From Tetrahymena thermophila SB210 (lineage: Eukaryota > Ciliophora > Oligohymenophorea > Hymenostomatida > Tetrahymenidae), in contig NW_002476347.1 of the NCBI RefSeq assembly GCF_000189635.1, positions 17,832 through 81,831 on the forward strand: a stretch of 64,000 nt of DNA, given 5' to 3'. A program made the position numbers and the translations under genes. Each line of letters opens with the position of its first letter. The first letter of the stretch is position 1. Positions 6,389-64,000 of the stretch are shown here, piece by piece. Under the pieces are notes generated by a model. It saw only the letters and a list, made by a program, of their open reading frames with translations. It did no database searches and was not told where the DNA came from.

Positions 6389-6475
6389 AATTGCTTATTG
6401 CTTTGATTTTAAATGTAGTAACTATTAAAATGTATAGGAAATTAATCATATGATCTTATTGCATAATGGCTTATA
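6389..6475 (+). pseudogene. Decayed signal-peptide-coding start of a type B gene, copy 1
   Basis: The stretch starting AAATTGCTTATTGCTTTGA aligns with the signal-peptide codons of B2 (7756-7840), including the later region around ATCATATGAT. The initiating ATG and the reading frame are lost. It lies inside the first unit of the 722-bp tandem duplication. Confidence 0.55.
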
Positions 6476-7101: not shown

Positions 7102-7165
7102 AATTGCTTATTGCTTTGATTTTAAATGTAATAACTATTAATGTATAGGAAATAAACATACATAA
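7102..7165 (+). pseudogene. Decayed signal-peptide-coding start of a type B gene, copy 2
   Basis: This is the second tandem unit's version of the fragment at 6389. It has the same AAATTGCTTATTGCTTTGA core and is shorter at its right end. There is no start codon or continuing frame. Confidence 0.5.
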
Positions 7166-7670
7166 CTAAGTTTTAATTTCTGATATTAAATATTTTAAGA
7201 ATAAAATCTAATTAATAATTAATGAAAATATTTACTGAAAATAATCGAATTAAAAATATATAAAACTCAATTTTATTTATAAATTTTAAAATAACATTTA
7301 TTATACTTAACTCTATTTTTAGTTTTTAAATTAACTAACTTCATAAGAATTTAGCCTATATAAAAAGACCACCTTTCCATTTAAATAATTGTTATAATTC
7401 TATTAGGATACTAGAAAGTGCATATCTAAATTTGAATTTCTGATATTAAATATTTTAAAAATAAAATCTAATTAATAACTAACAAAAATATTTACTGTAA
7501 AAAAAATCTAATTAAAAATATGAAACTCAATTTTATTTATAAATTTTAAAATAACTTTTATTATTCTTAACTTTAACTCTATTTTTAGTTTTTAAATACA
7601 CTATCTTCATATGAAATTAGCCTATATAAAAAGATCACCTTTCCATTTAAATAATTGTTATAATAAAATT

Positions 7671-7752: not shown

Positions 7753-10700
7753 ATGTAGAGAATTGCTTATTTACTACTTTTTAATTTAAATTTAGTAATT
7801 GCGTTAAAATGCAAAGGTAATTAAATATATGATGCCATAGCATAGCAGTGCGTTGAATGTTCAAGCAGATGTTTAAGCTGTTACAATATCTATTAGGATT
7901 CTTGTGTTAATTGCAATGAGAACTTTTTTATGAGTTCATAAGATAGTTCTACTTGCTAATAAAGCTGCTAAAAAGGCGAAATAAATGATGAAAACTAACA
8001 ATGCGTTAAATGCTAAGTACCTGGGTGCGTTAAATGTGATATCCATTAAATATGTCTTTAGTGCGATGTGAATTTGACTCTTAATTCAGCTTAAAATTAG
8101 TGCTAGCTATAATAAAACATTTGCTAGAATAACATGTCATATATTCTAGCCCCATATAGTTAAGACTAATGCGTTATTAGTTGTCCTCCATCTTATTATT
8201 AGAATGAAACAACTAAAATTTGTGAAAAGACTATTTAATGCATTTAAGCAAATGATTATTTCATGCCCTATTCTGATAAAAGGATAAAATAGATAGAATA
8301 AATAAACAAGAATCAATATTTGGTTAGAGCAACTCATTGCACATTCTTATTAATGGATAATAATTTAAATATAATTTCAGTCTAAATCTTATAAAATATG
8401 CCAAATTTTTATTCAGAGTATATGTTTTTTGGCGAGGAAATGCTCTAAAAAAGTTTCATAGTTGGCTCTTTTGGAGGTTGTACAGCTGATAACAGTTTAG
8501 TTGTGTTTGATTTTGAGACTATGAATGTTGTATTCAATTAAACTAATTTAGCTTACGATCAAAATGTTTAATATATAGATTAAGCAAACTAAATAGTTTT
8601 TCTAGGTTTCAATGAAATTTATGACATATTTTGGTATGATGCACTAAATTATAATCTAAATAAATAAACTCTACCCTATAACTTTCTGATAAAATTTATT
8701 TAAATTGAAAAGAAGACAAAGACAAACTATATTATACAAATAGATTTTGTAAATTCTATGGTAAATTAATTATACATTTTTAATTTTAAATAACATATTT
8801 TATATTTTTATTTAATTAAAGATAATGGAGTTATAAGAAGACAGGTCATTAGCCATTTTAAATAAAACACTAAATTACTCATCTATATCCTCACTTTAAG
8901 TATAATAAAAATAAGATTTTTTAATCTAAATTGGTTAAATTCATGGTCTTGCGCAAGTATAAAAGATTTAATTTGATAATGATTTTAATCTTCAAATTTA
9001 ATCTGTTGAACTCCTAAACAATTCATATTCTAGAATTGTATATTATAGTAAGTAATTAAATTGCTTATTATAATATAATAATGATAACTAAAATTTAGAA
9101 ATAGCTATCCTAAATGATTAATCTGATTAAATCACGGAAACAATTCCAATAAACTTATATATAAAAGACTAATTTAGCTTTTAGGAAAATACTTTTTCTA
9201 ATTCCTCCTTCATTTTCTTTATCAATGATTCGTTATACTTTCTTAATATCACACAATATTTAGAAAAATATAGATACACAGATTAACTAATTTTAACTGA
9301 AAATTTACTGAAGTAAATTAAATCATCTTAAATAAATAATTAAACAACTATATCAAATATTATTTTTGAGGAAAATAATAATATTAGTATATTTTTAACT
9401 TAGATTTTAAATACAGATGATTCATTTTACTAATAAATAAGAGTATAATATTCCCCTATTACTTTTTAATACAAAATCTAATTTATAAATCCCCTACAAC
9501 AAGTAAAACTTTATTATGATAAAACAGATTAACCGAACTAAAATTAAATGATTATTTTCAGTAATTTAACTTCAAATTCTTTTAATCTATATGACGGAAA
9601 TTAGATTTACTTAAATTAATAAATTGGTAATATAAATATATAATATCCTCTCACTAATTTGTAAAAGAACCCAGGAATAAATACATAATTTATTTATTTT
9701 TATCTCTCAGACAATATTACCTAATTTGATAGAGTTGTAAATATTAATGAAAAATATTTTTTAGTAAGCTAAGTTATTGACACAATTGTATATGAATACA
9801 TATATAATTTAAATGAGTAGAAGTAGATATTATCTTATTAGTATGAAAGAGGTTATGGTTAATTAATGAGTAAATATTTTTATATTTCAAAGATTGAAAT
9901 TTTAATAATAATCGATGTTCCTTAAATTTATAATTTAAAAACATAACAAAATATTGTTGACAATCCATCTGAAAATTATTTTTCTCTGAGTAATTTTATA
10001 ATAATAAATGATATTTAAATTGCGTATTTAACTTACGATGAAGAATACTCATTACTTCTTTACTTAATTGATTTATAGACACACTAAATAATATAGATTT
10101 ATAATTTTGGTTATAGCTATTTATCATTTTGGACGATAAATAATGGAATTTATCCTTTAATATCTTAAAATAATTTAATATATTTGATAGATTATAACAA
10201 TAATTGCTATATTTTTTCATTAAGTTAATTGGAAGTATACAATTAAGTAATTCTTTAGATATATCCTATTAATCTTCCTTCTCTGGTCTGTAAAAAAACA
10301 AACGAAATATTCATTTTTAAGTAGTCTGATATATATATTTATTCACCTGATCTTTAAAGCTTATTAATTCTAAATTTAGGTATTTAATATCCTAACTAAT
10401 ATTTGTTAATCACATATAAGGATTTAGTGTATGATGATAAGTATGTTTATTTCTATGAATAAAATAATTTTCATAAGTTTGATATGGAATTAAGATAATT
10501 TGAATCAATACCATCAAAAACAAGTCTCAACTTATACCTATAATCCCAATTTAGTTTTTATTTTATAGAAAGCACTCAATATATTAAAAAATCTTAAGAC
10601 ATAATAGATACAAAAAATATGATTGTAGTGAAAACATCATATGAATAAGATAATTATCTTGGAAAAATTGTATTTGATGATAATACTTCAATCCACTGTT

Positions 10701-13700
10701 TTTAATCCAAATAAGGTGCTTATTGGTATTATAATTTGCTTAATTAACCATTTGATGTTTTAAATATAACATAATACTAAACGATATAAGATTAACAAAT
10801 TGAAAATAATTATATAGCTATTTATGATTAAAGCACAAAATAGTTATATATTTATAACTTTCTCAAAGGAATTTAGTAAATTTAAGTGATAGATATAGAT
10901 TTGCAAGTGAATCTTTAGATTAAAATCTTAGATTGGGATTTATTAAGATTTATTTATGTAATAAATAACACATTTTATTTATATGACTCTCAAAACAAAA
11001 CATAAATTTCATTAATCTATTAAGCCTAATACAATATATAGCAATATTAATATTGCTAATTACAAAATCTAATTGTATTTTTGACATAAAATTCTAATTT
11101 TTAAATCATAAATGTAATTAAAAATTTTAATTTATTTAAAGTTTATTTTTTTTTTAATATTATGTAGGTGAATGATGGAACAATTTCTGACATCATTCAA
11201 GTATCAAGTTTTGATTATTAAAACGTTTAAGACTAATTTTATTTAAACTGTGATTAAAGCTTATTTGTCGTTTACTATCCTGTGCTTTAAATTTTTGACT
11301 TGGGAACAGGCTAGCCTATTGCAGATTTTTTAAATGTAAAATAATAATTATTTTTGTTTAAATTCTATCAATTTTATATTTGAATTATAGTATTAATTTT
11401 TCTTAATTTTTCCAGTTACTTATACATCCCCCTGTATTAAGTAAGAACCCATCTACTCAAAAAAGAGATTAAATAAAGTGTAATCGAGGGATGGCATTTT
11501 ATAAATTCAAATAATAATAGAAAATTAAATAATATTTTTTTAGATTTAGCTTCTTAACTTTATTTATTAACCTAATTTTTAAGAGAATGTTAGAAGTAAA
11601 ATATATTAATTTAAAATATTTTAAAATAGGATAACTTACTTTCGTTAAATAATGCCTTAAAGAGCATCCCTATAGTTGATATAGATGGTTATTTGATCGT
11701 ATATTTTTATAGTCCAAATTCATTTTATTTTAGCCACAAAAACTATTTTACATAAAAATATATTTTTGAATTTAAGTAAAATTCCACAAATATTTATTAT
11801 GATTTAGATAATAACATATTAATTGGACTTGTTGGTGAAATAAACCAAATAAATATTGTTAATGCCACTGGTACTTTACAATGTTTTACATACGAAACTT
11901 CTAGCCAATTTAGTAAAGGTGCTTCTTACTATTATAAAAATTAAAACAGCTTAATTATAATTGATAACTCTCCTATAATATACCTTTTAAATTATTTGAC
12001 TAAAAGTATTACAACTTTTAGAATAAATATAAGAAATATTCAAGGAATAATCATGGATGAGTTTAAAAGTGTTATATTCATATACTAGGATTATTTTATA
12101 TCAGCCTTTTAGTTTCCTAGTATGTAATTTATGGAAACAATTTCTGTAAAAGATTTCAGTATAAATCCAATAAATTCAATATTTATAAATTTTAAGCAAT
12201 CAATACTCATAGCAGAAACTCAAGATTCAATAATTTCTTTTGATTTAAATGAGATTATTTATGCTAGTGAAATAAACCTCTTTCAATATCAGAATATTCA
12301 AACAATAATTTATGAAGAAAAATATTTGGTATATTATAGTACTGTTAATCTTTCTTTGAATCTTTTTAAAAACTCTTAGTTAATGGATACTTTATTATTT
12401 GATCCAGTACCATCTAATATATATCCATATTTTACATAACTCATATAAATTCCAAAAAATCAATTCATTTATCTAACATATAACAAGCTGAGTATTATTT
12501 AACCTGATTTGTTAAAAGAATAATTAAATTTAATTTAAAACATAACATTATAAGATTTTACTGACCACTACTTTTACGATAATCAATAAAATCAAATATT
12601 TCTATTTTATGATAGAATCTCTTCTTTATATAAAATAGATCTAACTAAAAATCTTCTGACTGAAATCTATCAAACTAACTTTTCTATAAATAATATAATT
12701 TAGACACTTATATTTAGCGATTACATTATTTTAATTTCACCTAAAATGATTTAAATTTTTAATTTTATTAAGTAATCTAATTACTAATTAACTTATTCTA
12801 ACAATTCAACTGTAAAATTTGCATTAAAACTTTAGAAAAAGAAGTTTTAAGATTACTAAAATAATTTGTGGAACATACCTTTTGAGTATGAAGAGAAATA
12901 AAATAGTAACGATCCTAGTACAAATGAATCTAAACAACTTTGTATAATACTATATTAAGAAAATTATTTTGAAATACAACTTCTTAATCTTGAATCCTAG
13001 AAAGTAGATTACTCAATAAAACAAGAATTTATCAAAATTACTAATATTGTTAATGATCCCTTTAGATAGTTGATATATGTCATTAATAATATTGGAACCA
13101 CTCAAATATTTAACTATTCTTTAAAAATGTTGTCTACTATTTAAAATGCTTGTATAAAATAAGCAATAATTTCCTATGATATGGATTTTATTTATTCTAT
13201 TTGCCCAAATGATGTAATCATTTATAATGCTCTAAGCTTTTAACCCTAATTTCCAACAATAAATTCGGGATTTTCAGAAATCACTAATTTCGTAAAATTA
13301 AATTACAATAATTATTTTATAGTCTTACAAAAAAGTAAAGTTAGCATCATAAAAATGAATTACAATAAAAGTTATGAATTGATTCAAGAAATAAATTAAA
13401 ATGATTAGAAATTGTAAAATATGTAAATTCAATAAGATTAAAATGGACTTGTTTATCTTGAGTTGATATTATCTTCCTATTAAAATATTTATCATTCAAT
13501 TATTCCTTTATCATAGAGTAAAATTTGTAGCATTATAATTCAATAATAAAATAGAATCTAAGAAAATATTTATACAAAAATAGCACTAAATTAAGCTTTT
13601 AACTCAAATTAATTCAGTTAATACATACCATCTCTCATAAGCATTCAGTATTATAATTAATAATACATTTAAGATATTGACTTAAGCTTATTATAAACTT

Positions 13701-25600: not shown

Positions 25601-28600
25601 CTATTGTCTCAAAAGTACAAACAGCATAATTCTAAAATTTTGTTTATTTGAATTTAACTCTTTCCTCATATGGAGGTATAATTCATTCTACAATACCCTT
25701 ATATTCTAATTCAAATGATAAAAAATATTGCTTTATTAACATTTAATAGAAAAACAGAGAACTAGAGTATATTTATACATAAATCTCTTTAAATTAAATA
25801 AATTAAGTGCTTATAAATAGTAATTAAATACTCTCCTAAATTTAAATCGACTATTAAGATTAACAATATATCGAAGAAGTATATCTTAGCTAGTTAGAAA
25901 AAGCATCATTTAATTATGATCATGATTTAAACATAATTTTATAATCAAATTAAGAACAAAACAATATTTTTTGGTATAATAGTATAGGAAACCCATTTTA
26001 ATACATAATTAATTTAATTATTAGATAAATGAGTCTATTTATTATTGATAAAATATAATTAAATTAAAATAAAGAAATTAAACATTTTCAGATGGTAAAT
26101 GTGACTCTGTATATTGGGAACTAATTATATTTATCAAATTTTGAAAGTGTATTATTACAAAATATACAATTTTACAAAAGTTAAGGTAATAATTCAATAA
26201 TAATAGAAAATTGCTAACTTGTAGTAATAGAAAACCTGTAAATAGATAATCTTCAGAGCTAAAATATGTTATTTACTTTAAATAATAACATTCATGTTAT
26301 TTTAAGATAGGTTTACGTTGAAAACTCAAATTAAAATAATATATTTTATTTATAAAACAACTATATGGTTGAAATAGAAGACATATTCATAGAATAATCA
26401 AATTATCTTAATATATTTTAAGTTATCCTAGGAAATAGTTTGAATATTAATAATATTTAAATCAGTAATGGTTAAAATTCAAGAATATTATAAATTCTTG
26501 GTACTGTTGATGTAAATATATAAAAAATCCAAGTAAATGAAAGCAATTTAATAAAATTAATAGAAATTAACTCATTTTACATACAAAACCAAAAATTTTT
26601 ACAAATATAAAATGAAATTAGAAATTTAAAAATATTTAATTCAACAGATGTTTTTTTATAAATTGATTGTGGAGCATCTAGTATTTATGATCTTTAATTT
26701 ATTTAATTAAATTATACCTTAAATTATTGTATTTCTTTAAGAACAGATGATTTAATTATGGATAATATTACAGTCAAAAATTCCTAATCAAACTCGCCAG
26801 GTTTTATATAAATTTTTATGTTTAATAATTGCAAAATATAAAATATTTACAGCTTTAGTAATGATTTACAATTTATTTATTTGATGAATTAGAATTAAGG
26901 TGGATTTGCTTATATATTAAACTCTAAATTTATTAACTGTAATCTATAATAGAATGATTATTTAATCTATTTAATAAGTTTAGATAACATATTTTTAGAT
27001 TAAATTTAAATAAAAGATAATTTATTTAATAGTACTGATCGATCATCTGCTTTACTTATAATGGAATCCTAAACAATAACTCTCACTAATTTTTAAGTAA
27101 AAAATAATACTAATATGATGGGAGCTGGGGGTTCAATTTATGTTTTTGAAAGCGTAAATATAACTATAAAAAATAGTATTTTTATTTAGAATAAGTGCTT
27201 ATATTTTTAAGGTGGAGCTTTATTTATTTCTAGTTCTAACTTTTAGAGCTAACTAAATATTTATGATTCAATATTTTTATAAAATTAAGCTCTTGTTTCA
27301 ACTGGAGGAGCAATAAGTGTTTAAAATACAAATATTATTATGAAAAATACAGAAATTTCATAGAATAGAGCTTCTATAGGTGGAGGCGTTTATTATGAAT
27401 AAGTTATACCATAATTTATTTTAGACCTTAAATAGGTGTTAAAAAACAACGATAATAATAATAATAATAATACAATATAAAATAATTAAGCTCACATATA
27501 TGGTAATAATTTTGGGTCTTCTTTAAGAAAAATTAGTATTAACATTAAGAGTATTTAAATTCCAAAAGAAAGTGCTATTGAATAAGAAATGGATAATATT
27601 AAAATAAGTCTATTCAAGAGTGGATAGATAATTTCATTTAATAAAATCTAATTACTAGATGAAGAAGATAATCCTATTTTTATTCCTAAAATTGGAGAAT
27701 CAGATTTCAATAAATTAACTTAAGATATATAATCTCTAATTAAATAAATTATTATTTCTTTGAGATGGGATCAATAAAATTATTAAATATAGCTCTAAGG
27801 ATAACTTTAATCATAAGAATTTATAAATGGTGGATTCAATTTGAATGCATAAATTATGTATTAACCATAAAAAAATATGGTTCTCTAAATTGTTTCAAAC
27901 ACATTTCAATAACTTTAAGATCCAAAGGGAAATATTGTAATTTAAGGTGGATAGTTTTTGCAAAATATAACTATTGACTTTGTAAGTTGTTCTACTGGAG
28001 AAATTCAAAAGGATTAAGGTAATTCTATTGTGTGTGATTAATGTCCTGATGGAAAATACTCTTTAAATACAGCAGATACAGATTGCTAGTAATGCCCGAT
28101 AGTTGCAATTTCATGCTATGGTTCAGTGATTAATTTAAAGAATGGTTACTGGAGGGAAAGTGAGATGACAGACCAAATAGCTTATTGCTAGTATAATCCA
28201 ATATCGTGCTAGTCTTAATCGAAAAACTCAAAGGTAACATAAAAATAATAATTCATCAATTAAATTATAAAATATTAATAAATATGAAAACTATTAAATT
28301 TAAATATAATTAAAAAATGTTTTATCGTTTTCATTTACTTTTTCAAATTAATTTTTAAAAATATAAATAATATAAAGTATGGTTGTATTGAAGGTTACGT
28401 AGGTACTCTTTGCTAATCTTGTGATATATATGGAGTAGTTTGGAAATAACGATACTCTGAAATATTTAAACCAGGGAAATGCTATATATGTGAAGAAAAT
28501 GCATTACTTATCTTTGTCCAAAATTTAATAATATTTTTGCTAATTTCTACATATATTTTCTATATTTTAAAAAATATAATTTCAAAACTTTAATCAAAGC

Positions 28601-30305
28601 TAGCTGGCTATTACATTTAGAGGTTAGATATAATTTATTTAGGATCAACATGTAAACATTAAATTTTATATTTATATTTTTTAATTTTTATCATATTAGT
28701 AAGTAAATTAGATAGACCACAAATCGTATCTAAAATTATGACAGACCATCTTTAAATCTTATCGTTATTAATATCCTTTTAAGTTAATATACCGATATCG
28801 TTTTAATTGCCAGTTTAATTCTTAGGAAACTCTCTATAATATGCTAGTAAATCTATTGATTGCGTTTTTTCTAAGAATAAACACTTACAGCCACTGTGGT
28901 TTTATTAATCTTTATGGTCATTTGCTTTGCCTCTTAGCTTATTAATTGCTTATTTTACTGTTGGAATATCATATAGCCTATTCAAAAAAAATAAAATTAT
29001 GCTAAAGTATAAAACTACAGCTTTTCTTTTTATTTATTTTTACTTTTTACCTATGGTTATAACACTTTTAAGCAGGTCTATTAACTGCATCTAAATAGCA
29101 AATAAAGCATATTTAGATATCGATATAAATATTTAATGCTTTGATGATAACTGGCATAAACCGTTTATATATTATTACTCAATACCAATGTTAACAATTT
29201 GGTTATTAGTAATTCCTCTTTGCTTATTGATAAAAATTAGAGATTTTAAAAATTAATAAAAGTCCTCTATATTTAGTGTATGTAAATATTCATTTATATT
29301 TGCAGGATACAAAGAAAAGTTTTATTATTGGGAGTTTGGTAAATTAATTTATAAATCTTTGCTAATTTTTATTGGGATCTTACTCTAATAAAAGCCATTT
29401 CTAAAAGTAAATTTTTTAAAGTTATAATAAACAAATATTTAAAAATAACTTTTATTTTATAAAAGGTATGCTTGTTGAACGGTTTAATATTTTTTTAATT
29501 TTATTTAATCTTCAAAGCTAAGCCATATTAGATATAAAGCTTTAACAATTCACTGTAGAAATCAACTTTGCTGTGCTCATATACTTTGAATCTATCTACT
29601 ATTTATTAATAGGTTATTAATGAAAATTTAATTTATCAAATAGTAATGATTGGATTATTAATTATACCAAACCTTTTATTTATTCATTAGATATTGCTAG
29701 GTATAGTTTTTATTAGTATCTCAAGCGATAAAAATGATAGAAACTTATTTCAAAATATTTTATTTTCTTTAAAGTGTAATTTTCCAACTTAATTTGAAAA
29801 CATTTAAATTTAAAATAAGAAAAAAATAAAATATTTAATTAAATTTAAATAAGTAAAAAATAAGATATAAAAACTTATTTAATATTTAAAAAGCTATGAT
29901 TTTTATAGCTAGTAAACCTTACAATCTCATTTTAATTTACAAAGATGCTCACCATAATAATAAACTTCTCAAATTATACAAAACACAAAATTATAATTAG
30001 ATTAGCAAACTAATTCATAAGATAACACCAAAAATCCATTTTTTTTAAAGATTAACTCATTAAATAAGATGAGAAATAAGTGGTCTTACTACAGTAGAAA
30101 AACTAGATAAAGCCCTTTATGTATTTATTATTTTTATATTCTTAAAAGTTTTATTAATTTCTAAAAAAATATAGGCAAAATTTAAAATGAGTCTAATTAG
30201 GGAATGGAACTAACTTCAGCAAAATTAAAATATACCTAAGAAGATGAGATTTGTTCAATAAACGCAACTAATGAAAATATCAATTAAAATATTGAATATA
30301 ATTGA
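19647..30305 (+). CDS. Giant multi-pass surface protein, type A (A3), intact
   Basis: Eight exons: 19647-20648, 20899-23181, 23238-23399, 23818-28233, 28378-28651, 28700-29406, 29466-30120, 30175-30305. They total 9630 nt (3209 aa), with stop TGA at 30303-30305. The start gives a signal peptide (MVFLIKITIIFSLLKAVLS) followed by a Cys-rich segment with C..C pairs up to about residue 165. The long middle is beta-rich. The beta-helix region has GGSIYV, GGALF, GGAIS and GGGVYY turns (about 27121-27395). A C.QCPDGKYSLN motif follows near 28038, then seven hydrophobic segments and a polar tail. Exon number and phases equal those of type B, but the protein sequence is clearly diverged from B. It is very close to A1 throughout the shared part. 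Intron 3 (23400-23817) is larger than in the B genes. An Asn run encoded by AAT repeats at about 27450-27470 is longer than in A1. Probable surface receptor or adhesin; ligand unknown. Confidence 0.88.
23668..23748 (+). repeat. Three 27-bp tandem repeats in A3 intron 3
   Basis: Copies start at 23668, 23695 and 23722 with cores GTGCCCAATAAAGA, GTGTCCAATAAAAA and GTGTCTAATAAAGA, exactly 27 bases apart. A related TGTCCCAATT follows the third copy. The first copy overlaps a perfect small palindrome (ATTGGG TG CCCAAT). The patch is richer in C and G than the rest of the intron and is absent from the matching introns of the B genes. Confidence 0.65.
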
Positions 30306-42657: not shown

Positions 42658-45600
42658 ATGTAGAGAATTGCTTATTTTCTTCTTTTAAATTTAAATTTAA
42701 TAGTAATTGCATAAAAATGCAAAGGTAATTAAATATATGATGTCATAGCATAGCAGTGTGTTGAATGTTCAAGTAAATGTTTAAGCTGTTACAATATCTA
42801 TTAGGATTCTTGTGTTACTTGCAATGAAAACTTTTTTATGAGTTCATAAAATAGTTCTACTTGCTAATAAAGCTGCTAAAAAGGCGAAATAAATGATGAA
42901 AACTAACAATGTGTTAAATGTAAAGTACCTGGGTGTGTAAAATGTAATATACATTAAATATGCCTTGAATGTGATGTGAATTTGACTCTTAATTAAGCTT
43001 AAAATCAGTGCTAGCTTAAATAAGACACTTGCTAAAATAAAATGTCATATATTTTAGCCCCATATAACTTAGACGAGTGCGTTATGAGTTGTCCTTCTTC
43101 TTATTATTAAAATGAAACAACTAAAATTTGTGAAAAGATTATATAATGCATTTAAGTAGATGATTATACCATGTCATATTTTGATAAAAGGATAAAATAG
43201 ATAGAATAAATAAACAAGAATCAATATTTAGTTAGAGCAACTCATTGCACATTCTTATTAATGGATAGTAATTTAAATATAATTTCAGTCTAAGTCTTAT
43301 AAAATATGCCAAATTTTTATTCAAAGTATATGTTTTTTGGTGATGAAATTCTGTAAAAAAGCTTCATAGTTGGCTCTTTTGGGGGATGTTCAGCTAATAA
43401 CAGTTTAGTAGTATTTGATTTTGAGACTATGAATGTTGTGTTCAATCAAACTAACTTAGCTTACGATCAAAATGTTTAATATATTGATTAAGCAAACTAA
43501 ATAGTTTTTCTAGGGTTCAATGAAATTTATGACATATTTTGGTATGACTCATTAAATTAAAAACTAAATAAACAAACTCTCCCCTATAACTTTCTGATAA
43601 GTTTTATTTAATTTGAAAACATCACAAAGACAAACTATTTAGTATAAATAGATTTTGTAAATTCTATGGTATTAATTATGCTTTTTTAATTTTAAATAAC
43701 ATAATTTATATTTTTGTTTAATTAAAGATAATGGAGTTATAAGAAGACAGGTCATTAGCCATTTTAAATAAAACACTAAATTACTCATCTGCATCCTCAC
43801 TTTAAGTATAATAAAAAAATGATTTTTTAATCTAAATTAGTTAAATTTATGGTATTGCGCAAGTATAAAAGATTTAATTTGATAATGATTTTAATCTTCA
43901 AATTTAATCTGTTGAACTCCTAAACAATTCATATTCTAGAAGTGTATATTATAGCAAATAATTAAATTGCATATTATAATATAATCATGATAATTAAAAT
44001 TTAGAAATAGCTATCCTAAATGATTCATCTGATTAAATCACAGAAATAATTCCAATAAACTTATAAATAAATGACTAATTTAGCTTTTAGGAAACTACTT
44101 TTTCTAATTCCTCCTTCATTTTCTTTATCAATGATTCATTATACTTTCTCAATATAACGCAATATTTAGAAAAATATAGATAAACAGATTAATTTATTTT
44201 AACTGAAAATTTACTGAAGTAAATAAAATCATCACAAATAAATAATTAAACAACCATATCAAATATTATTTTTGAGGAAAATAATAATATAAGCAGTGTT
44301 GGAACGAAGTTTGGCAAGGCGAAGAAAATTCGCGAAGGGGCGAAGCTTTTTTAGAGGCAAGATTTTTTTTTCTTCGCGAAGTCAAATTTTTTAGCCTTCG
44401 TTCCAACACTGAATATAAGTATATTTTTAACTTAGATTTCAAATATAGCAGATTCATTTTACTAATAAATAAGAATATAATATTCCACTATTACTTTTTA
44501 ATATAAAATTTAATTTATAAATCCGCTATTATAAGTAAAACTTTATTATGATAAAAAAGATTAGCTGGATTAAAATTAAATGATCATTATCAGTAATTTA
44601 ACTTCAAATTCTTTTAATTTATATGACGGAAATTAGATTTACTTAAATCAATTAATTGGTAATATAAAAATATAATATCCTCTCACTAATTTGTAAAAGA
44701 ATCCAGGAATAAACACATAATTTATTTATTTTTATCTGTTGGATAATATTACCTAATTTGATAGAGTAGCAAATATTAATGAAAAATATTTTCTAGTAAG
44801 CTAAGTTATTGACACCGTTGTATATGAATACATATATAATTTAAATGAGTAGAAGTAGATATTATCTTATAAGTATCAAAGAGGTTATGATGAATTATTG
44901 AGTAAATATTTTTATATTTCAAAGCTTGAAATTTTAATAATAATCGATGTTCCTTAAATTTATAATTTAAAAACATAACAAAATATTGTTGACAATCCTT
45001 CTGAAAATTATTTTTCTCTGAGTAATTTTATTATAATAAATGATATTTAAATAGCGTATTTAACTTATGATGAATAACATTAATTACTTCTTTACTTAAT
45101 TGATTTACAGACACACTAAATAATATAGATTTATAATTTTGGTTAAAGTTACTTAGAATTTTGGAAGATAAATAATGTAATTTATCCTTTAATATCTGAA
45201 AATGATTTAATATATTTGATAGATAATAACAATAATTGCTACATTTTTTCATTAAGTTAATTGAAACTATACAACTAAGTAATTATTTAGATAAATCCTA
45301 TTTATCTTCCTTCTCTAGTCTGTAAAAAAACAAACGAAATATTCATTTTTTAGTAATCTAAAATATATATTTATTCACCTGATCTTTAAAGCTTATCGAC
45401 TCTAAATTTAGGTATTTAATATCCTAAAAAATATTTGTTAATCACATCTTAGGATTTAGTGTATGATGATAAGTATGTTTATTTCTATGAATAAAATAGT
45501 TTTCATAAGTTTGATATGGAATTAAGATAATTCGAATCAATTTCATCGAAAACAAGTCTCAGCTTATATTTTAAATCCCAATTTAGCTTTTATTATATAG

Positions 45601-48600
45601 AAAATACTCAATACATTAAAAAATCTTAAGACATAATAGATACAAAAAATATGATTGTAGTCAAAGCATCATATGAATAAGATTATTATCTTGGAAAAAT
45701 TTTATTTGATGATAAAACTTCAATCCATTGCTTTTAATCCAAACAAGGTGCTTATTGGTATTTTAATTTGCTTAATTAACCATTTGATGTTTTAAATATA
45801 ACATAATACTAAACGATATAAGATTAACAAATTGAAAATAGCTAGATAGCTATTTACGACTAAATCACAAGATAGTTATACATTTATAACTTTCTCAAAG
45901 GAAGTTAGTAAGTTTAAGTGATAGATATTGATTTCCAAGTTAATCTTTAGATTAAAATCATAGATTGGGAATTAGTTAGCTTTATTTGTGTAATAAATAA
46001 CGCATTTTATTTATATGACTCTAGAAATAAAACATAAATGTCATTAATCTATTAAGCCTAATAGACTATATAGCAATATTAATATTGCTAATTGCAAAAC
46101 AGAATTGTATATTTGACATAAAATTCTAATTTTTAAATCATAAATGTAATTAAAAAATTTAATTGATTTAAAGTTTATTTTTTTTTAATTATTTGTAGAT
46201 GAATGATGGAACAATTTCTGACATTATTCAAGTATCAACTTATGATTAATAAAACGTTTAAGACTAATTTTATTTAAAGTGTGATTAAAACTTAATTGTC
46301 GTTTACTATCCTATGCTTTAAGTTTTTGATTTGAGAACAGGCTAGCCTATTGCAGAGTTTCTTAATGTAAAATAATAATTATTTTTGTTTAAATTCTATC
46401 AATTTTATATTTGAAATATAGTAATAATTTTTCTTAATTTTTCCAGTTGCTTATACATACATCCCCATATTAAGAACTATCTACTTAAAAATTGATAAAT
46501 ATAATTACCCTAAAAGATTTTTAAAATACTGTGAATTGTTGAATAAAAAAAATATAGGGTCTTTATTTTTTTAGCTTATAAAATTTATTTATTAACCTCT
46601 TATTAAGAGAATGAAAGAAGTAATAATATATTAATTAAAAATATTATAAAATAGGATTAGTTATTTTAGTTAGAAAACATCTTATATAACATACCTATAG
46701 TTGATATAGATGGTTATTTGGTGGTATATTTTTATAGTCCAGATTACTTTTATTTTTTCCATAAAAACTATTTTACATAAGAGTATATTTTTGAATATAA
46801 GTAAAATTCCACTAATATTTATTATGACTTAGATAATAATATATTAATTGGACTTGTTGGTGAAATAAATCAAATAAATATTGTTAATGCTACTGGTACT
46901 TTACAACGTTTTACATACGAAACTTCTAGCCAATTTAATAAAGGTGCTTCTTACTATTATAAAAATTAAAACAGCTTAATAATAATTGATAACTCTCCTA
47001 TAATATACCTTTTAAATTACTTGACTAAAAGTATTACAACTTTTAAAATAAATATAATTAACATTCAAGGAATAATCATGGATGAGTTTAAAAGTGTTTT
47101 ATTTATATATTAAGATTATTTTATCTCAGCCTTTTAGTTTCCAAGTATGCAATTTATGGAAACCATTTCTGTAAAAGATTTCAGTATAAATCCAATAAAT
47201 TCATTATTTCTAAATTTTAAGCAATCAATACTCATAGCATAAACTTAAGATTCAATAGTTTCTTTTGATTTAAATGAAATTCTTTATGCTAGTGAAACAA
47301 ACCTCTTTCAATATCAGAATATTCAAACAATAATTTATGGAGAAAAATATATCGTATATTACAGTACTGTTAATCTCTCTTTGAATCTATTTAAAAACTC
47401 TTAGTTAATGGATACTTTATTATTTGATCCAGTACCATTTAATATATATCCATATTTTACATAGCTCATATAAATTTAAAAAAATCAATTCATTTACATA
47501 ACATATAACAAGCTGAGTATTATTTAACCTGATTTATTGAAAGAATAATTAAATTTAATTTAAAACATAACATTATAAGATTTTACTGACCACTACTTTT
47601 ACGATAATCAGTAAAATCAAATATTTCTCTTTTATGAAAGAATCTCTTCTTTATACAAAATAGATTTAACTAAAAATATTCTGACTGAAGTCTATCAAAC
47701 TAACTTTACTATAGATAATATAATTTAGACACTTATTTTTAGTGATTTCATTATTTTAATTTAACCTGATATGATTTAAATTTTTAATTTTATTAAGTAA
47801 TCTAATTACTAATTGACTTATTCTAAAAATTCAACTATTAAATTTGCATTAAAGCTTTAGAAAAAAAAGTTTTAAGAAGAATAAAATAATTTTTGGGACA
47901 TACCTTTTGAGTATGAAGAAAAATACAATAGTAACGATCCTATCACGAATGAATCTAAACAACTTTGTCTAATAGTATTTTAAGAAAATTATTTTGAAAT
48001 ACAACTTTTTAATCTTGAATCCTTGTAAGTAGATTACTCAATTAAACTAGAATTTATAAAAATTACTAATGTTGTTAATGATCCCTTTAGATAGTTAATA
48101 TATGTCATTAATAATATTGGAACCACGCAAATATTTAGCTACTCTTTAAAAATGTTGTCTACTATTTAAAATGCTTGCTTAAAATAAGCAATAATTTCCT
48201 ATGATACGGATTTTATTTATTCTATTTGCCCAAATGATGTAATAATTTATAATGCTCTAAGCTTTTAACCTTAGTTTCCAACAATAAATTCAGGACTTTC
48301 TGAAGTCACTAATTTCGTAAAATTAAATTATAATAATTATTTTTTAGTGTTACAAAAAAGTAAAGTTTCCATCATAAAAATGAATTACAATTCAAATTAT
48401 GAATTGATTCAAGAAATAAATTAGTAGTATTAAAAGTTATAAAATATGTAAATTCAATAAGATTTAAATGGGCTTATCTATCTTGAGTTGATATTATCTT
48501 CCTATTAAAATATTTATCATTCAATTATTCCTTTATCACAAACTAAAATTTGTAGCATTATGATTCAATAATAAAATAGAACCTAAGAAAACATTAATAC

Positions 48601-51600
48601 AAAATTAGCATTAAATTAAGCTTTTAACTCAAATTAATATACTAATTACATACCATCTGTCATAAGTATTTAGTACTAAAATTAATAATACATTTAAGAT
48701 ATTGATTTAAGCTTATTATAAACTTTGAAAAATGATTCAAATTATACAAATACTTTAATAATTTAATCAGACTCTGAATAAAATAGTATTTTCTGGAATT
48801 AGGTTAATGATTTTTAGAATTACATACAAAATGTTTAATTAAAACAAATGAACTTATCTATTTTTAATTAAATTAGCTTGAATAAAAATAGTTCTATGGA
48901 TAACTTTTAAATGGTAAACATAAATTTGTATTTAAATAATTCTTTGATTTTGTCTAATTTTGAATAGGTTTTAATCCAAAACATAACAATTAATAATACA
49001 ATATTAAGTGAATAATAAAACTAGATAGTTATCTCAAACTGTAAACTAGTTGTGATAGAAAATATTTTTATAAGCAATTTTAATTTTCAAAATGTTATGT
49101 TTAATATATCTAATAATACAAGAGTTTTCATTAAATAAATTTAAATAATAAATATAACTTAAACAAACTTATTCTCACTTGTTAATAATAATGAAGTATT
49201 GATATCAGACATATTCTTTTAATAATCAAATAATGTATCACTTTTTGAAATTTAGATATCTAATGTTTTGAATGCTACAAATTTTTACATTAACAATATT
49301 TAATCTTCAATTATACTTAATATATAGGGGACTTTCATCTCTAGTATTGAAAAATTTAACATTAGTCAAAGTTAAACTATTTATTTTGCGAAAGTCTAAC
49401 CATTATTAAAGAATAATTTACAGCTTTTATGCAATTAATATGATGCTAAATATATTAACATTTAAGATTCAATAGATGTACAAATCTATTTATAAGCAAA
49501 CAATACAACAATATTTAATATGAAAATTAATTAGCTTACTTTATCTTAAAGCTTTATGACTATTTTTTCAACACAATCTACCATAGATACAATTTTTATA
49601 ACTAAATCTAGAGTAGGGACATCTTAAAATATTCCTAAATTGATAGAGATAGTGAATTTTTAAAATTCTATAATTAAAAATGCTAATTGTATTAATAATC
49701 AGATTCCCTTACTTTATATGAGTTAATAAGTTTCTGCAGGATAGGTTCTTTTAGATTCTTCTATATTTATGGATATCAACATATAAAATGACATTCCATT
49801 CATAAGTCTAGAAAAAATTTTAGCAGTTTAATTAAATTAACTTACTTTTAGAAATATTACAATACAATAAAACACATATTCCTCTATCTTAGTAATAGAT
49901 TCTTGCAATTAAATAAATATTTCTAAGAGCTCATTTATTAGTAATAGTAATTAAAAAGGAAAAGGAGGTTCAATCCAAGCTATAGATAATTAGTTTATTG
50001 AAATAGAAAATTCTCAATTTAGTTAAAATAAATGCTTGTCTTTAAATGGAGGAGCATTGTTTATTAGTAATAGTGTGTTTTAAGCATAAGTTATTATAAA
50101 AAATAGTTTATTTAACTTTAATACGGCCATTTATTCAACTGGTGGAGCTATTCATTTGGAAAACTCAAATTTGAAAATGTATAATACTTCTATTTTTTCT
50201 AATGAAGCTGCTATTGGAGGAGGAGTTTTTTATTAATAGATTATTCCAGATTTTATTTTAGACTTCTAAAAAGGAATAGTTTATAATAATAAAATTATAA
50301 ATAATAAAGCTACCATTTTTGGAAAAAATTTTGGATCGGCATTAAGAAAAATAAAGATAAGTTTAGATGACATAAAAGTAAACAATCAAAGCTTAATTAT
50401 AAAAAATAATAGCTTAGAAGAAGTAATATAATTGAAAAGTGGTAATTAAATATCATTTTAAAGAATTTAAATCCTTGATGAAGAAAATAACCCTGTTATT
50501 ATTCCAAATTCAAATGAGCCATATTTAACTAAATATTGTAGCAGCGTTTAAGCATTAATTTAAGAAGTTGGTATTTCAGTTGAATGGGATTAAAGTAATG
50601 ATTAAATTTAATGTATCGGTCAGCTTTAAACAAATTAATTTATAAATGATCATTTCTAATTGAGTTTTTAAGTAATGTATAAACCATTAGGTAGTACAGT
50701 TTTAAAACTAGTTTCTAATACAATTTCAGAGCTTTAAGATTCTAAGTAGTAGGTTTATTTTAAATAAGGAAAACTTGAATTAGAAATCAAAATATAATTT
50801 TTAGGATGTTCTGTTGGAGATATATTAACACATTAAGAGAAGTCACTTATCTGTGAATAATGCCCTGACGGTAAATATTCATTAAATCTTAATGATACAA
50901 CTTGCCAACAATGCCCAGATTCGGCTGTTAAATGTATTGGTTCTAATATTTACTTAAGAAATGGGTATTGGAGAGAAAATGAATACACAGACAATATTGT
51001 TTATTGTGATTTTAATCCAAATTCATGTTAAGCTGAATCAAATCTATCAAAAGTAAATAATTAATCTTATATGATATTTAATTTAATAATCAGTAGTAAA
51101 TGTACAGGTTATTATTTTTTAAAAACATAATGAAAAATTAAAATAAATATTTTTATTTGAAATTAAAAATTTTAATAATAATTTATCATAAATTGATAAA
51201 ATACCCCCCCCTTGAATCACAAATCATAAAATCTATATAAATCTTTTTCAAACTCTTAAATATCTTATGTTATATTTATTATCTTTTAAAATTTATACTA
51301 CAATTTCATAATTTATTTGATAAAAAATTAAAAAAAAGATGAACTGCATTTAAGGTTATAAAGGTCCTATTTGCAAATCTTGTGACATTTATGGAGATGT
51401 TTGGGAATATAGATATTCTTAATTATTTGATGAAGGAAATTGCTACAGATGCAGTTAAAATGTTTTATATATAGTACTTTAAAATCTTGCCATATTTTTA
51501 TTTGCCTCTTGCTACATATTTGGAATTTTAAAAAAAATTATCTCTTCATTATAAGCAAAACTTGCAGGATATTTTATCAATAAAGCAGATATAATTTACT

Positions 51601-53263
51601 TGGGCACGACATGTAAGTACTTTTAAATATTTAACTTTTTAATAATTTAATAAATTTAAAAAGTAACTGATAAAGATAAATCATAAATAGTTTCTAAGAT
51701 TCTAACAGATCATCTCTAAATGTTATCTTTACTTAATACCATTTAAATTAGTATCCCTTCATTTTTTAAAGCATCTATTGGATTATCTGGAAACCCTCTT
51801 AGAGTTACAAGTAAATCTTTTGATTGCATATTTTCATAGTTTCCAAATTTACAGCCCTTATGGTTTTATCAAACAATATGGTCTTTTTCTTTACCAGCTA
51901 CTTTATTCATAACTTACTTAATATTTGGAGTTTTAATGTAAGTATTTAAAAAAAATAAATCTGCTCTAAAATATTTAAATACAGCTACTATCTTTATGTA
52001 TTTTTATTTTTTCCCTATGGTGATAACAACCTTAATCAGATCAATAAATTGCTTAAAGATTGGAAACAAAAATTACTTAGACATTGATGTTTCTATTGAT
52101 TGCTATGATTCAACTAAGCATAAGCCGTATATCTTCTATTTTAGCTTACCATTATTAATTTTGTGGGCACTATTTATTCCTCTACTTTTATTTTTAAAAA
52201 TAAAAAATGGTAAAAAGAGAAAGTGGTCTATATTTTTAGAAATTAAATATTCATTTATTTTTGCCGGTTATAAGTAAGGTTTCTTCTACTGGGAGTTTGG
52301 AAAACTTATTTATAAAACAATATTTATTTTAACTTCAATAGTATTTTAGCAAGATTTGATATTAAAGGTATATTTATTTAATTATTAATATAACACCTAA
52401 CTAATTTATTTTATAATTTTTTTTAAATATTAGCTTAGTCTAATAAATATTACGATTTTAGTAAAATACTACTTGCTTTTAAAGTTCTAACCATTTACGA
52501 GAACAAATTTTAATTACTACTAATAGAAATCAGTATTTTTAAGTGCTTTGTCTTTAAATGTATCTTCAATATAATTAAATCAACTAAACAGTCTCATAGC
52601 TTTAATACTTATATTACCAAATCTCTTGTTTATCATACAACTTTTTTTAAACATAGTTTAAGTAAAAATATCTAGTGAAGAAGAAAAAAGAAATATCATC
52701 TAAAAATGTCTCTATTATTTTAAATAAAAATACCCAGAAATGTTTGAAAATATACAAATTGTAAGAAAATAAAGGTTATAGTCTATAATTAAGTTGAAAA
52801 AAGTAAGAAACAAAATTTAAAAGCTTGCTATTTATTTAAAGAATAATTAATTTTACTAATAAGAATCATTCTAATCTGTCTTTTATTTATAAAAATCTCA
52901 AATTATCTCTTAAGGTTCTCCTCTAACTTAACTTAACAAATTTTAAGGTATTGATTCAAATTAAAGTAGGCTTTTTAAGAAAAAAGCAAAAAGTATAAAG
53001 TATTTATCAAATCTCAAAGATAAATGGAATTACTACACAAGAAAATCTAAACAAAATGAACTCAGTATCATAATTCTTAATAAAATATAATATTTAATTA
53101 ATTAATTTTTAATAAAAAAGGTTCTAAAAATTATGCACATATTGATAAATTCTAATTAGCTCCATAGCTTACTAAGGATTCGAGTGTAGATAATGAGAGG
53201 ATTATGACTTCAAGCAGATAAATTGAAAATTTTAATTTACTTTTATCGCCTAAGTTAATATGA
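42658..53263 (+). CDS. Giant multi-pass surface protein, type B (B5), with transposon-derived insert
   Basis: Eight exons: 42658-43668, 43728-46145, 46199-46366, 46655-51052, 51339-51612, 51664-52367, 52434-53064, 53121-53263. They total 9747 nt (3248 aa), with stop TGA at 53261-53263. The domain order is as in B2. The signal peptide starts MQRIAYFLLL. The beta-helix GGA turns lie around 49965-50225, the C.QCPDGKYSLN motif near 50850, and seven hydrophobic segments run from about 51465 to 52650. Exon 2 is 2418 nt (806 codons) against 2292 nt (764 codons) in B2. The excess of 42 codons is accounted for exactly by a miniature transposon plus its target duplication at 44294-44419, read through in frame. 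All other exons match B2 in length, apart from one codon more in exon 1 and two in exon 8. The intact frame after insertion argues that the protein is still made. Ligand and role unknown. Confidence 0.87.
44286..44293 (+). repeat. Target-site duplication, left copy (AATATAAG)
   Basis: This 8-base copy abuts the left terminal inverted repeat, and the identical right copy is at 44412-44419. The sister genes have a single similar unduplicated site at this point (around 9371-9385 in B2, 33003-33016 in B4). Confidence 0.9.
44294..44411. mobile_element. 118-bp hAT-like MITE inserted in the coding exon of B5
   Basis: The element has perfect 16-bp terminal inverted repeats, CAGTGTTGGAACGAAG at the left and its complement at the right, flanked by 8-bp direct repeats AATATAAG. 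A CAG.GTTGG-type terminus with an 8-bp target duplication is typical of the hAT superfamily of DNA transposons. It has no transposase and is too short for one, so it is a non-autonomous miniature element. By my count it is 42% G+C (50 of 118), far above its surroundings. CGAAG-type motifs recur inside on both strands (near 44318, 44330, 44339, 44373 and 44395) and could be subterminal transposase sites (inference). In the B5 reading frame it contains no TGA, and element plus duplication is 126 bp, so the host frame continues through it. Confidence 0.88.
44412..44419 (+). repeat. Target-site duplication, right copy (AATATAAG)
   Basis: Identical to 44286-44293, immediately right of the MITE's terminal inverted repeat. 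Confidence 0.9.
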
Positions 53264-59344: not shown

Positions 59345-62300
59345 ATGGATTAATCTCAAAATTTGTCTTCAAAGACGCTTTTAGAGAGCAAGGAAGCTAA
59401 GTAAAATCCAAAAGACCCTTTCTCAAAAATAAATTTCTTTTCAAGAATATTGTTCTTTTGGGTGTTTTCATTGATAAAAGTAAATTGTATAATTTATTAA
59501 TAGGATATTTAATTATATTTATTCAAAAAGAATGCTCAAAAAAGGAGCTTAGAACAAGAAGATATATTCTAGCTGAATAAAAAAGATTAAAGCTAATATA
59601 ATTTTGAGAAATTTGATAAAATTTATGAAGAGCTTATTAACAATCCTAAAGTTAAAAACAAAATAAAGACTACTTTTTACCGAATTTATAAAAGTAATTT
59701 TTATTATTATTAAATACTTCTACTTTTATTAAATCAAGCAAAGTAAAATTTAAAATATTTATATTGAATTAAAAAGAGGAAATTATTATTTCAGCTATCT
59801 TGTATTTCTTGTATCTGATGAGTAATGTGTTTAAAATGATGTCCTTTTAATTGATCTTAGATGCATTTGATGATCCTTTACGTGGTAAAAGTTTTTCTCC
59901 AATGATTTTTGGAATGGTCTTGCTTGCTAGTTCATTTATTTTATAATCTATAATTTATTCTAACTATAAATTCTATTATGTAACATAAAATATTTAATTC
60001 TTTCAATAATATTTAAATTTTATTCAATATTCAACAAAGAGTTAGTTGACTGTAAGAATGACAGGTGCTCTTAGTATAAAGATCTTTAAAAAAACTTTTT
60101 GTTTTGCTATGTAAAGAAACTAATTGTATAAAGTTGGAGATATCTTAAATATGATTTAAGTTGATATTTTACAAGTAATTTTAAATATTTAAAATAAAAT
60201 ATTATTTTCAAAAATATAAAATTTATATATTTTTTTTAAAGATAGTTTCTTATGTTTAAAGCGTTTTTACTTTAGCCTTCTCTTTTTTGCTCATATTAGT
60301 GTCTTTCTATTTATGCTATAAATAATTAAATAATGTTAAAATCATACTTGTGATGGCTGTATGTGTTTTAATTGCCTCTACTATTTCTTTAGTTTTCGGT
60401 AAATGGTATGGAAATATCTAAAAAAAATTCATGCACTAAAAAGATCTTCGTATGAGATCTCTTGAAGAAATGATGAGAGGAATTAAAACCATTAAGTATA
60501 ACTGTCTAGAATCCTTTTTTGATGAAAGAGTAAATTATTTTCAAATTAGATTTAATAGTTTAACTAAATCTTTTTTAGATCATGCATAAAAGAGAAAAAG
60601 AAATCAAAGAACTAAAGCTGTAAAATGTTCTAAGTAGTTTAAATGAATTTATCTCTAATTTTTCATGTACAGTTGCAATATTTATTGTTACACTTATATT
60701 TGGTATAAGTTCTTTGTCATAATTTTTAATGATCAATAGCTCATATAACATCATATTAAATTTTCTTATCTCTGTTCCTAGTTCTATACAGGGTATTGTT
60801 GTAGGCTCTAATTCTATGAAGAGAATTGATATTTTCTTAACAGAGAGTTTTGTTTATTAATAATGTATAAATAGCAATGATTAACAAAATGCAATTTCTT
60901 TAATTAATTCAAATTTTTCTTGGAAGAACTCTCTTGATATCAATTAAATTGAAGAGTCTGTTTAATTATCCAAAAGAGAAAGATAATCATTTAGTTAGTA
61001 ATCCTAATCTAATTTATTTGAAATAAAAAATTTAAGTTTAACCATAAAGAAAGGAGAATATGTTGTTTTTTATGGGGAGTAATCTATTTATTTTTTTATT
61101 TTATCTTTTAAACTAATTTTTTTTACTTTAGTTTAGGAAGTGGAAAGACTTCTATCCTTCAAGGCATATTAGGAGAAATGGAAGTAAATGGAGGATAAAT
61201 TATGTATGAATAAATGGTTTAAATTAATGGATAAATCAGTATCTGTTCATAAGAACCTTGGATAATTTAAGATACTGTAAAAGAAAACATTGTCTTTGGT
61301 TAAATTTTTGACAAAGACAGATATAAACAAGTTTTAAAAGTATGCAGTTTAGAGGAAGATATTTCTTATTTTATTGATGGAGATCAAACAAACATAGGAG
61401 AAAAAGGGTAATAGCTTTTTGTATATTTTATAAATTTTTTATATCATATGTTTTGAGGATACAATTTTTAAAAATCTACTACTCAAATACAAAATAAAAA
61501 AAAATATTAAAATTGAAGTGAAATTTTGTTTTTATTTTATTTATTTATTTATTTATTTATTTTTTAGAGATACACTTTCTGGAGGATAAAGGAAAAGAGT
61601 AAATTTAGCAAGATCAATCTATAAGGAAGCAGATATTTACTTTTTAGATGATCCTCTTAGTGCTCTTGATATTGGAGTATCTACTTAGATAGCTAAAGAG
61701 TGCTTTGAGGGAATGTTAAAAGATAAGACAAGAGTAATTTTTACAAACAGCTTAACTGGAATGAATAAAGCAGATAGGATATTTGTAGTAAAAAATGGCT
61801 AGATTGTGAACGAAGGAAATTACAATTAAATTAAAAAAATAATTGCCTAAGCAAATAATAATAGTTAGTATGATCTTGAGTAAGACATGCATGATGAGGA
61901 AAAGGAGAGAGCATAATCTATAAAAATTCTTAAAAGCCAAAGAAAAGAATAAAATAATGAGAATAATTACACAAAAAAATTAATTTAATCAGAAGATATA
62001 TAACAGGGAAATTTTAAATTAGAAATCCTTAAAGAGTTTTTTAAAAGTGTTGGAGGAACTCCATTTATAATAATTAGCATCATATGTATAATTTTTCAGA
62101 AATAATATTTTTACTTACTTTCAATAATTTTATCAGTAATAGCTGCTTACACAGTTGCAGGTGTGTTTTCTAAATTAATATAATTAGATGTGTCTAAAGA
62201 TGCTCCTAAAGATTAATAATTTAAAGTCATGATGGGGTACTGTGCTTTGAACGCTTTATGCCTTTTATTGGTAATGGCTTTTGAGCTTTATATTGTAATT

Positions 62301-64000
62301 AAAATGGCAAATCTCTCAAAGTAATTACATAAATCCATCGTTTTTGAATTGCTCAGAGCTTCCTTTACAAAATTTTATAACTTGATTACATCAGGAAGAA
62401 TTATGAATCGCCTTTCTAAGGATATTTATCAAGTAGATATGTAGGTTACTTAGGATATGTCTAGTAATTATTACAATATTGGAGGTTTATTTTTTTCTAT
62501 AATTACAACATTTATCATTTGTAATATATCTACCATTCCCATTGGTATTTGCTACATCTTCCTAGCTGTTTTTATTGCATTTATATTCTTAAAAGCAAAA
62601 AGATAGTTAGCTAGAATAGGTAATGTTCATTTTACATTCAGAAATTCATAACTAAAATTTATTTATTTATTTATTCAGAGGCTACTTCTAAAAGTCCAAT
62701 TTTGCAATACTTTTCAGAAATAATAAGAGGTATATTTTATGTTCGCTATTGCGTTTGCTACTAAAAAATGAAAAATACTTTCCAAGAATATGTTGATATA
62801 GATTTGAGAAATCAAATAGCTCTTAATGGAGTTGAATTTTGGTTTGAATGTATTTCAAATTTTTTAAACATGTTCCCAGTTTTAATAAGTGTAGCAATTG
62901 TGGTAAGAAATTAATTTTTGTCAATTTCATTTTTAAAGTATTATTTTATTAGTATTATGACATGTCTGTTTCAGCAAATAACGCTGTGTTAATGGCTGTG
63001 TAAGTATCAGGAATAGCTATCAGCTTAGTTTATTTTACTAAATCATGGATATCTTATGAAACTCATTTAGTAAATTATGAAAGATGCCTTAAATTAAAAG
63101 AGTAAATATTTTTAAAAATGTTGAATTATATAAAAAATATTTATTTTTGGTATTTAAAAAGGAGTATTATTCCTGAAGATTACGAGTTATAAATTTAAAC
63201 AATAAATTCTTAAATTTAATAAAATAATTAATCTAATAATTCTAACTATAAACAACCTGATATAGAATCAAACTAAAGAAGTTACAATAGCTAGTTTGAA
63301 TCTGAATATGACTGCTTTTATTAGCAATAAATAGTTTTCAAAAATGCTTCTTTTTAATATAGGGAAGACCTCCCTAATTGTTTATAGAATCTCAGTATAA
63401 AATTTTCGGGTAATGAAAAAATTGGTGTAGTAGGAAGAACAGGAGCAGGAAAAACATCAATAACTCTAGCTCTAACTAAAGTACTAGATCTTGTTGAAGG
63501 AGATGTACTAATTAATGGAAAAAGCATTTCTGAGTATCCTCTAAAAAATCTAAGAAAAAGTATAATAAGTGTTGTAAGTTAAGAACCTTATATTTATGAA
63601 GGAAGTCTTAAATAAAACCTTGATCCGTATAATTAATACACAGAAAACTAGATTATAGATGCATTTAAGAAATGTGGATTTAGTACTTTTCGTTCTTTTA
63701 AAGATGGACTTAAAACCTAAGTAAATATTTATCATATTTATTATTTAGTATAACTTTTTCAAAAACAGATTAGTTAACTGGGTGATAACTTATCAGAAGG
63801 TGAAAAGCAGTTAATCAGCATATGCCGCATAATCTTGAAAAAATCTAAGATAATAATTGTCGACGAACCAACTAGTCATATCGACGCATCTATGGAAGAT
63901 CATGTCACAAAAGTTCTAAATGACTGTTTTTAAGATTGCTTAATGATTACGATAGCCCACAAAATAAAAACCATTATGAATAGCGACAAAATACTTGTTT
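59345..64000 (+). CDS. ABCC/MRP-type ABC transporter, 3' end beyond the window
   Basis: Eleven in-window exons: 59345-59479, 59531-59693, 59777-60174, 60242-60529, 60579-61078, 61132-61407, 61568-62619, 62679-62902, 62953-63101, 63162-63720, 63769-64000 (about 1325 residues). The order is TMD1, NBD1, TMD2, NBD2 with no TMD0, as in short ABCC exporters. The N-terminus has [20 protein letters not shown], the usual ABCC lead-in. NBD1 (about 470-660) has Walker A GDLGSGKT split by an intron, Q-loop SQEPW, signature LSGGQRKR and Walker B IYFLDDP, where Asp replaces the catalytic Glu as in many MRPs; its H-loop position reads TNS, so the switch His is absent. NBD2 (about 1130 on) has [19 protein letters not shown], a signature altered to LSEGEKQL, Walker B IIIVDEP and H-loop TIAHK. 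It probably exports organic anions or conjugates across a membrane; the substrate is not readable. It is unrelated to the surface-protein array. Confidence 0.9.

Follow-up and report, generated by a model that had tools for sequence, protein, structure and literature searches.

A hAT-like miniature element inserted in frame in exon 2 of a tandem-family gene of Tetrahymena thermophila

Exon 2 of B5, a member of a tandem gene family of Tetrahymena thermophila, contains a 118-bp element with perfect 16-bp terminal inverted repeats (TIRs), flanked by both copies of an 8-bp target site duplication (TSD). The block of element plus duplication is absent from the corresponding exons of related genes, and the reading frame of B5 stays open across it. 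This is probably a non-autonomous element of hAT type that inserted in the exon with the frame kept; expression of B5 in this form would add a peptide. The predicted translation of the insert is the simplest reading of the sequence, in which the B5 protein may carry 42 extra amino acids.

The whole stretch of DNA analysed (the window, 64 kb) has a G+C content of approximately 21% and contains long reading frames once TAA and TAG are read as glutamine (code 6); exon 3 of B5 by itself has 121 such codons. The genetic code, the base composition and the short GTA...AG introns point to a hymenostome ciliate such as Tetrahymena. The B units form a tandem gene family spread over approximately 7.4–53 kb of the window, with the following features around the insertion and in the paralogues.

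43669–43727, forward strand: intron 1 of B5 (inferred), 59 nt, 90% A+T, matching introns of B2 and B4 in position by alignment
43728–46145, forward strand: exon 2 of B5, 806 codons (code 6) including the 42 of the insertion; limits deduced from the GTA...AG introns that line up among the paralogues
44286–44293, forward strand: left copy of the 8-bp TSD, AATATAAG, from the empty-site comparison with B2 and B4
44294–44411, forward strand: hAT-like MITE, 118 bp, 42% G+C, mostly hairpin-forming, from TIR and TSD, fold and absence from three paralogues
44294–44309, forward strand: left TIR, 16 bp, CAGTGTTGGAACGAAG
44396–44411, reverse strand: right TIR, 16 bp, a perfect match to the left TIR
44412–44419, forward strand: right copy of the 8-bp TSD, AATATAAG
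8822–11113, forward strand: exon 2 of B2, empty-site paralogue, 764 codons
32449–34746, forward strand: exon 2 of B4, another paralogue with an empty site, 766 codons
20899–23181, forward strand: homologous stretch of B3, a distant paralogue (39% identical), without the insertion

Upstream of B2, at 5129–7397, the 5′ portion of a B gene recurs as incomplete, rearranged copies; these segments (5129–6100, 6186–6465, 6471–6676, 6680–6811 and 7167–7397) match B5 at 42.3–43.8 kb. At the other end of the window, an ABC transporter (60477–63999), whose top sequence matches in the PDB belong to the ABCC (MRP) type, is unrelated to the B array. The window gave no Rfam match at the gathering threshold, and the telomere repeat and chromosome-breakage core motif are absent from its 64 kb, an absence that is uninformative.

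The element had been described in the original prediction as 118 bp long with 16-bp inverted ends and an 8-bp duplication, and each of these properties was reproduced at the same coordinates (TIR 16/16, TSD 8/8). The whole window was scanned for exact 8-bp duplications flanking inverted repeats, with element lengths of 30–5000, and compared with 20 windows simulated with its trinucleotide composition. At a TIR length of 8 the 13 pairs found are background (simulated mean 10.25, maximum 16); two pairs were found at length 10, compared with 0.8 in the simulations, and two at length 12, compared with a mean of 0.1 and a maximum of 1. At lengths 14 and 16 the element at 44294–44411 is the sole pair in 64 kb, and its TIR/TSD structure is not due to chance. 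The second candidate at TIR length 12 (28357–28681) was attributed to chance, its ends being made of A and T only and its fold indistinguishable from that of shuffles (z 0.03). The single strand of the element, by comparison, folds much more strongly than 200 shuffles of it (RNA z −7.5, DNA z −6.8). The motif CGAAG/CTTCG occurs 7 times in its 118 bp and 8 times in all of the remaining window; 2000 shuffles of the element had a mean of 0.57 copies and a maximum of 4, the observed count being partly inflated because the element is palindromic. The G+C content of the element is twice that of the window, which may reflect a recent arrival from another genome, and no second copy was found inside the 64-kb window.

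The boundaries of the insertion are given by the paralogues. The 126-bp block is missing exactly from B2 and B4, and also from B3 by a much more diverged alignment. Across 43735–46166, B5 shares 92.8% identity with B2 (2140 of 2306 gap-free columns) and 90.5% with B4 (2084 of 2304). The block is the sole gap between B5 and B2 in exon 2, in agreement with the earlier observation that the B5 exon exceeds its B2 counterpart by exactly 42 codons (806 compared with 764); the exon 2 alignment of B5 and B4 has two further 3-nt gaps. The empty site reads AATATTAG in B2 and AATATTAA in B4, and both copies in B5 read AATATAAG. Because both TSD copies carry a T-to-A change relative to B2 and B4, the insertion is most simply placed later than that change, and entry of the element into exon 2 after B5 split from B2 and B4 is supported by these alignments. 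The 24 paired positions of the TIR and TSD contain no differences, in line with a young insertion, although they set only a loose limit on its age. An assembly artefact was rejected, as the exact TSD and the empty sites of the paralogues speak against it, and so was contamination, the element lying inside a gene with exact junctions.

In the proposed course of events, one target base would have changed on the B5 line (AATATTAG to AATATAAG) after its split from B2 and B4. A non-autonomous cut-and-paste element of hAT type, mobilised by a transposase encoded elsewhere, would then have inserted, with the 8-bp target duplicated by a staggered cut and its repair. B5 would stay open, as 126 bp were added without a TGA in frame, and, provided that it is expressed with the locus in this state, its protein would gain NISSVGTKFGKAKKIREGAKLFQRQDFFFFAKSNFLAFVPTL. 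Within this course we infer that the element is of the hAT class, that it is kept in the expressed nucleus and translated, and that the peptide is tolerated rather than selected.

By its size, ends, duplication and hairpin the element is a textbook MITE. MITEs are also expected in multiple copies per genome; the 64-kb window has one. Elements of the hAT superfamily have ends with a YARNG-type start, and the TIRs of hAT MITEs begin with CAG; TSD lengths overlap among transposon superfamilies. The ends of the element begin with CAGTG, which matches the YARNG-type start. The hAT element Hermes has a TSD of 8 bp and a target preference of nTnnnnAn, which is a preference and not a rule, and its BED domain binds clustered subterminal repeats, as given in the text available for PMC10368747. 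AATATAAG agrees with the Hermes pattern at one of its two fixed positions, with A present at position 7 and T absent at position 2, and the CGAAG/CTTCG cluster resembles the Hermes subterminal repeats, a likeness by sequence alone that is due in part to palindromy. Like hAT MITEs in general, the element is short, starts its TIRs with CAG, has an 8-bp TSD and lacks coding capacity; unlike them, it is seen here with neither an autonomous partner nor a second copy, and its 42% G+C contrasts with a window of approximately 21%. Together, CAGTG ends, the exact 8-bp TSD and the clustered subterminal repeats make hAT the best-fitting superfamily for what is here called a hAT-like element. That the MITE belongs to another superfamily (for example P, Merlin or Mutator-like), its TSD being 8 bp long by coincidence, is unlikely given this combination, although the assignment uses the TIR and TSD alone, TSD lengths are shared between superfamilies, and only one of the two fixed Hermes positions is matched.

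The name is kept at ‘hAT-like’ because neither a transposase nor a second copy was found. The original prediction is supported in its insertion of an element with TIRs and an 8-bp TSD; its hAT assignment, which draws on the ends and the TSD, is putative. Sixteen reading frames, a part of those in the window, gave no Pfam match to a transposase. The TIR-pair pattern had no hits in collections of genome contigs and viral contigs, a 20-mer of the left end had none in the viral contigs, and a left-end pattern with 19 fixed bases had none in the genome contigs; these collections do not represent ciliate genomes, so misses there say little about further copies. A 16-mer match to the TIR in the viral contigs (L001) was judged to be chance, with no opposite end in 8241 bases at up to 2 mismatches in 12. 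Among the papers listed as containing the initial 10 bases of the TIR, no title concerned a ciliate transposon.

Read in the B5 frame, the element has no TGA and a single TAG, which is Gln in code 6, as the original prediction held, and no in-frame TGA occurs in exon 2 of B5, B2 or B4. The exon is open because 118 + 8 = 126 bp is a multiple of three and the added frame has no TGA; with 118 + 8 divisible by three, length is therefore no filter on insertions of this element. Five of its six frames are open under code 6 (one contains TGA), compared with two of six under the standard code. Element and duplication were also inserted in silico at almost all positions and in either orientation, judging only codons with element bases, into exon 2 of B2 (n = 4548), exon 2 of B4 (n = 4560) and exon 3 of B5 (n = 8870). 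With TGA as the only stop, 70.4%, 70.4% and 71.0% of these insertions, respectively, added no stop; with TAA and TAG also counted as stops, the same insertions did so in 26.9%, 26.9% and 27.2% of cases. The argument that reassigned stops make ciliate exons tolerant of such insertions is thus borne out for this element (approximately 70% versus 27%). Random 118-mers with the base-step make-up of the element (5000 trials) had an open frame in 65% of trials with TGA only, and in 38% with TAA and TAG as stops, which puts the openness of the element close to what its composition would lead one to expect. For this element an open frame is what insertion gives by default, even without selection for a peptide, and so is not evidence of function.

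The inserted peptide is rich in Phe and Lys, as had been noted (8 Phe and 6 Lys of 42 residues, net charge +6), and is unlike its surroundings. Through the duplication of the target, Asn-Ile-Ser, which could be an N-glycosylation sequon, is encoded a second time; no weight is given to this because exon 2 has 14 sequons in each of B5, B2 and B4. The structures predicted for exon 2 with four paralogues had a mean pLDDT of 35, too low to place the insert in the fold.

The peptide would be lost, in whole or in part, if the insertion behaved as an accidental intron, transcribed and then removed completely or partially by splicing. On paper, GT–AG pairs of in-frame length exist in the insert region (for example 44296–44394, 99 nt, and 44309–44419, 111 nt), and the hairpin could draw the ends together. 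Both introns measured, however, start with GTA and are approximately 90% A+T, whereas the element contains no GTA and is 58% A+T, and none of the GT–AG pairs listed removes exactly 126 nt, all of which makes splicing of the insert very improbable.

The element could instead be germline-limited, the window representing a germline or unexcised form from which the block is removed in the somatic nucleus, so that it never reaches the protein. Ciliates eliminate most transposon DNA: the text available for PMC5182062 gives 95% of putative TE sequence as removed in T. thermophila, with approximately 1 Mb apparently kept in the somatic genome, and excised MITEs provide a precedent in Blepharisma (PMC9942856). 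According to the portion of PMC8354472 available, Paramecium exons hold many excised elements, the exonic IESs of T. thermophila number only 11 and have TIRs that end in TTAA, and germline Tetrahymena DNA carries approximately 0.1 IES per kb. The flanking repeat here is AATATAAG and not a TTAA terminal direct repeat. Set against that IES density, the other internal gaps are at most 20 nt between B5 and B2 and at most 22 nt between B5 and B4, larger gaps of 46 and 52 nt being unaligned ends of B units; the comparison covers B2, B4 and B5, with B3 aligned in part, and an insertion common to all units would not appear in it. The scarcity of large gaps among the three units leans weakly towards a somatic rather than a germline window, and a germline-limited element appears quite unlikely.

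To judge whether B5 is a working gene, the spans compared were exon 2 (43728–46145, with limits from introns), exon 1 (42712–43660) and exon 3 (46628–51080). The B5 and B2 units differ by 26 gaps, of which only the 126-nt gap lies inside exon 2 or the compared exon 1 and 3 spans; for B5 and B4 the figure is 4 of 45 (the insertion, both 3-nt gaps of exon 2, and one of 5 nt at 51062 in the apparent next intron). The cleanness of the exon 1 and 3 spans arises partly by construction, because their limits were set after the gaps were known; still, 4.4 kb of exon 3 free of B5/B2 gaps contrasts strongly with the gap density around the compared spans. The 1-nt gaps between B5 and B2 at 51635 and 52430 were rejected as frameshifts, as they lie in apparent introns and the flanking protein is alike in both genes. 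The ratio dN/dS (Nei–Gojobori, custom script) was 0.21–0.41 across nine whole-span comparisons, and 0.65 for B5/B4 in one sub-stretch of 182 codons upstream of the insertion. B5 thus looks like a constrained gene, although dN/dS covers the whole time since duplication and much of the constraint may predate the insertion.

Changes found on one lineage only gave synonymous:nonsynonymous counts of 23:19 (B5), 15:24 (B2) and 18:21 (B4) in exon 1, of 31:48, 34:42 and 43:86 in exon 2, where B5 is between B2 and B4, and of 66:73, 72:114 and 111:153 in exon 3. These counts bear on the reading in which B5 is becoming a pseudogene, the insertion disrupting the folding of a redundant tandem copy whose product is of no consequence. 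Several related B copies exist, which makes redundancy of B5 plausible; the Phe- and Lys-rich insert departs from its surroundings, and over its first 1.1 kb exon 2 otherwise has the same length in B2, B4 and B5. Yet the compared B5 exon spans contain neither a frameshift nor a TGA, and the changes specific to B5 are not unusually rich in replacements, although the insertion may be too young for visible decay. Decay of B5 is accordingly a lesser but appreciable possibility.

Pfam gave no match at the curated cut-off for exons 1–3 of B5, and the ‘giant surface protein’ of the original prediction is a putative label. The end of exon 3 (within 46535–53204) is cysteine-rich, with weak NCD3G and ephrin-receptor-like matches below the Pfam cut-offs, and the frame that follows has, by eye, several long hydrophobic stretches interrupted by apparent introns. 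These properties are in line with a membrane-anchored surface protein without proving one. Relatives of exon 3 were sought in viral contigs, a collection that is not ciliate, in which 5 stretches fitted the peptide pattern and none was confirmed.

In-frame mobile palindromes in proteins are already known from Rickettsia, and the present insertion is ordinary in kind. Rickettsia palindromic elements (RPEs), approximately 150 bp long, lie in frame inside open reading frames and add a peptide, in 44 genes of Rickettsia conorii according to the text available for a review (PMC10969869). The element resembles RPEs in being palindromic and in frame within a protein-coding gene; RPEs differ in being bacterial and present in many genes, whereas here a single copy has eukaryotic cut-and-paste hallmarks and a reassigned code that aids tolerance. 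Among ciliates, the exonic IESs of Paramecium and Tetrahymena and the MITIES of Blepharisma are likewise small mobile or mobile-derived DNA in genes, bounded, as described in the portions available of PMC8354472 and PMC9942856, by TA, TAA/TTA or TTAA and excised in development; the B5 element differs from them in its 8-bp duplication and in being present in the assembled gene. Among the matches listed from the open-licence literature, no report describes a ciliate exon that has kept a hAT MITE in frame. It is conceivable, if highly improbable, that the element represents a eukaryotic counterpart of RPEs: a transposon family with a length plus TSD divisible by three and with frames mostly free of TGA, spreading through UAA/UAG-recoded exons as translated peptide modules and escaping elimination.

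A single silent or unexpressed copy would be of little importance. As a candidate for transposon sequence that is kept, and possibly translated, in a ciliate gene, the element is of interest because ciliates normally purge such DNA from their expressed genes, and the locus is a clean test case, provided by nature, for the idea that coding exons accept mobile DNA more readily when stop codons are reassigned.
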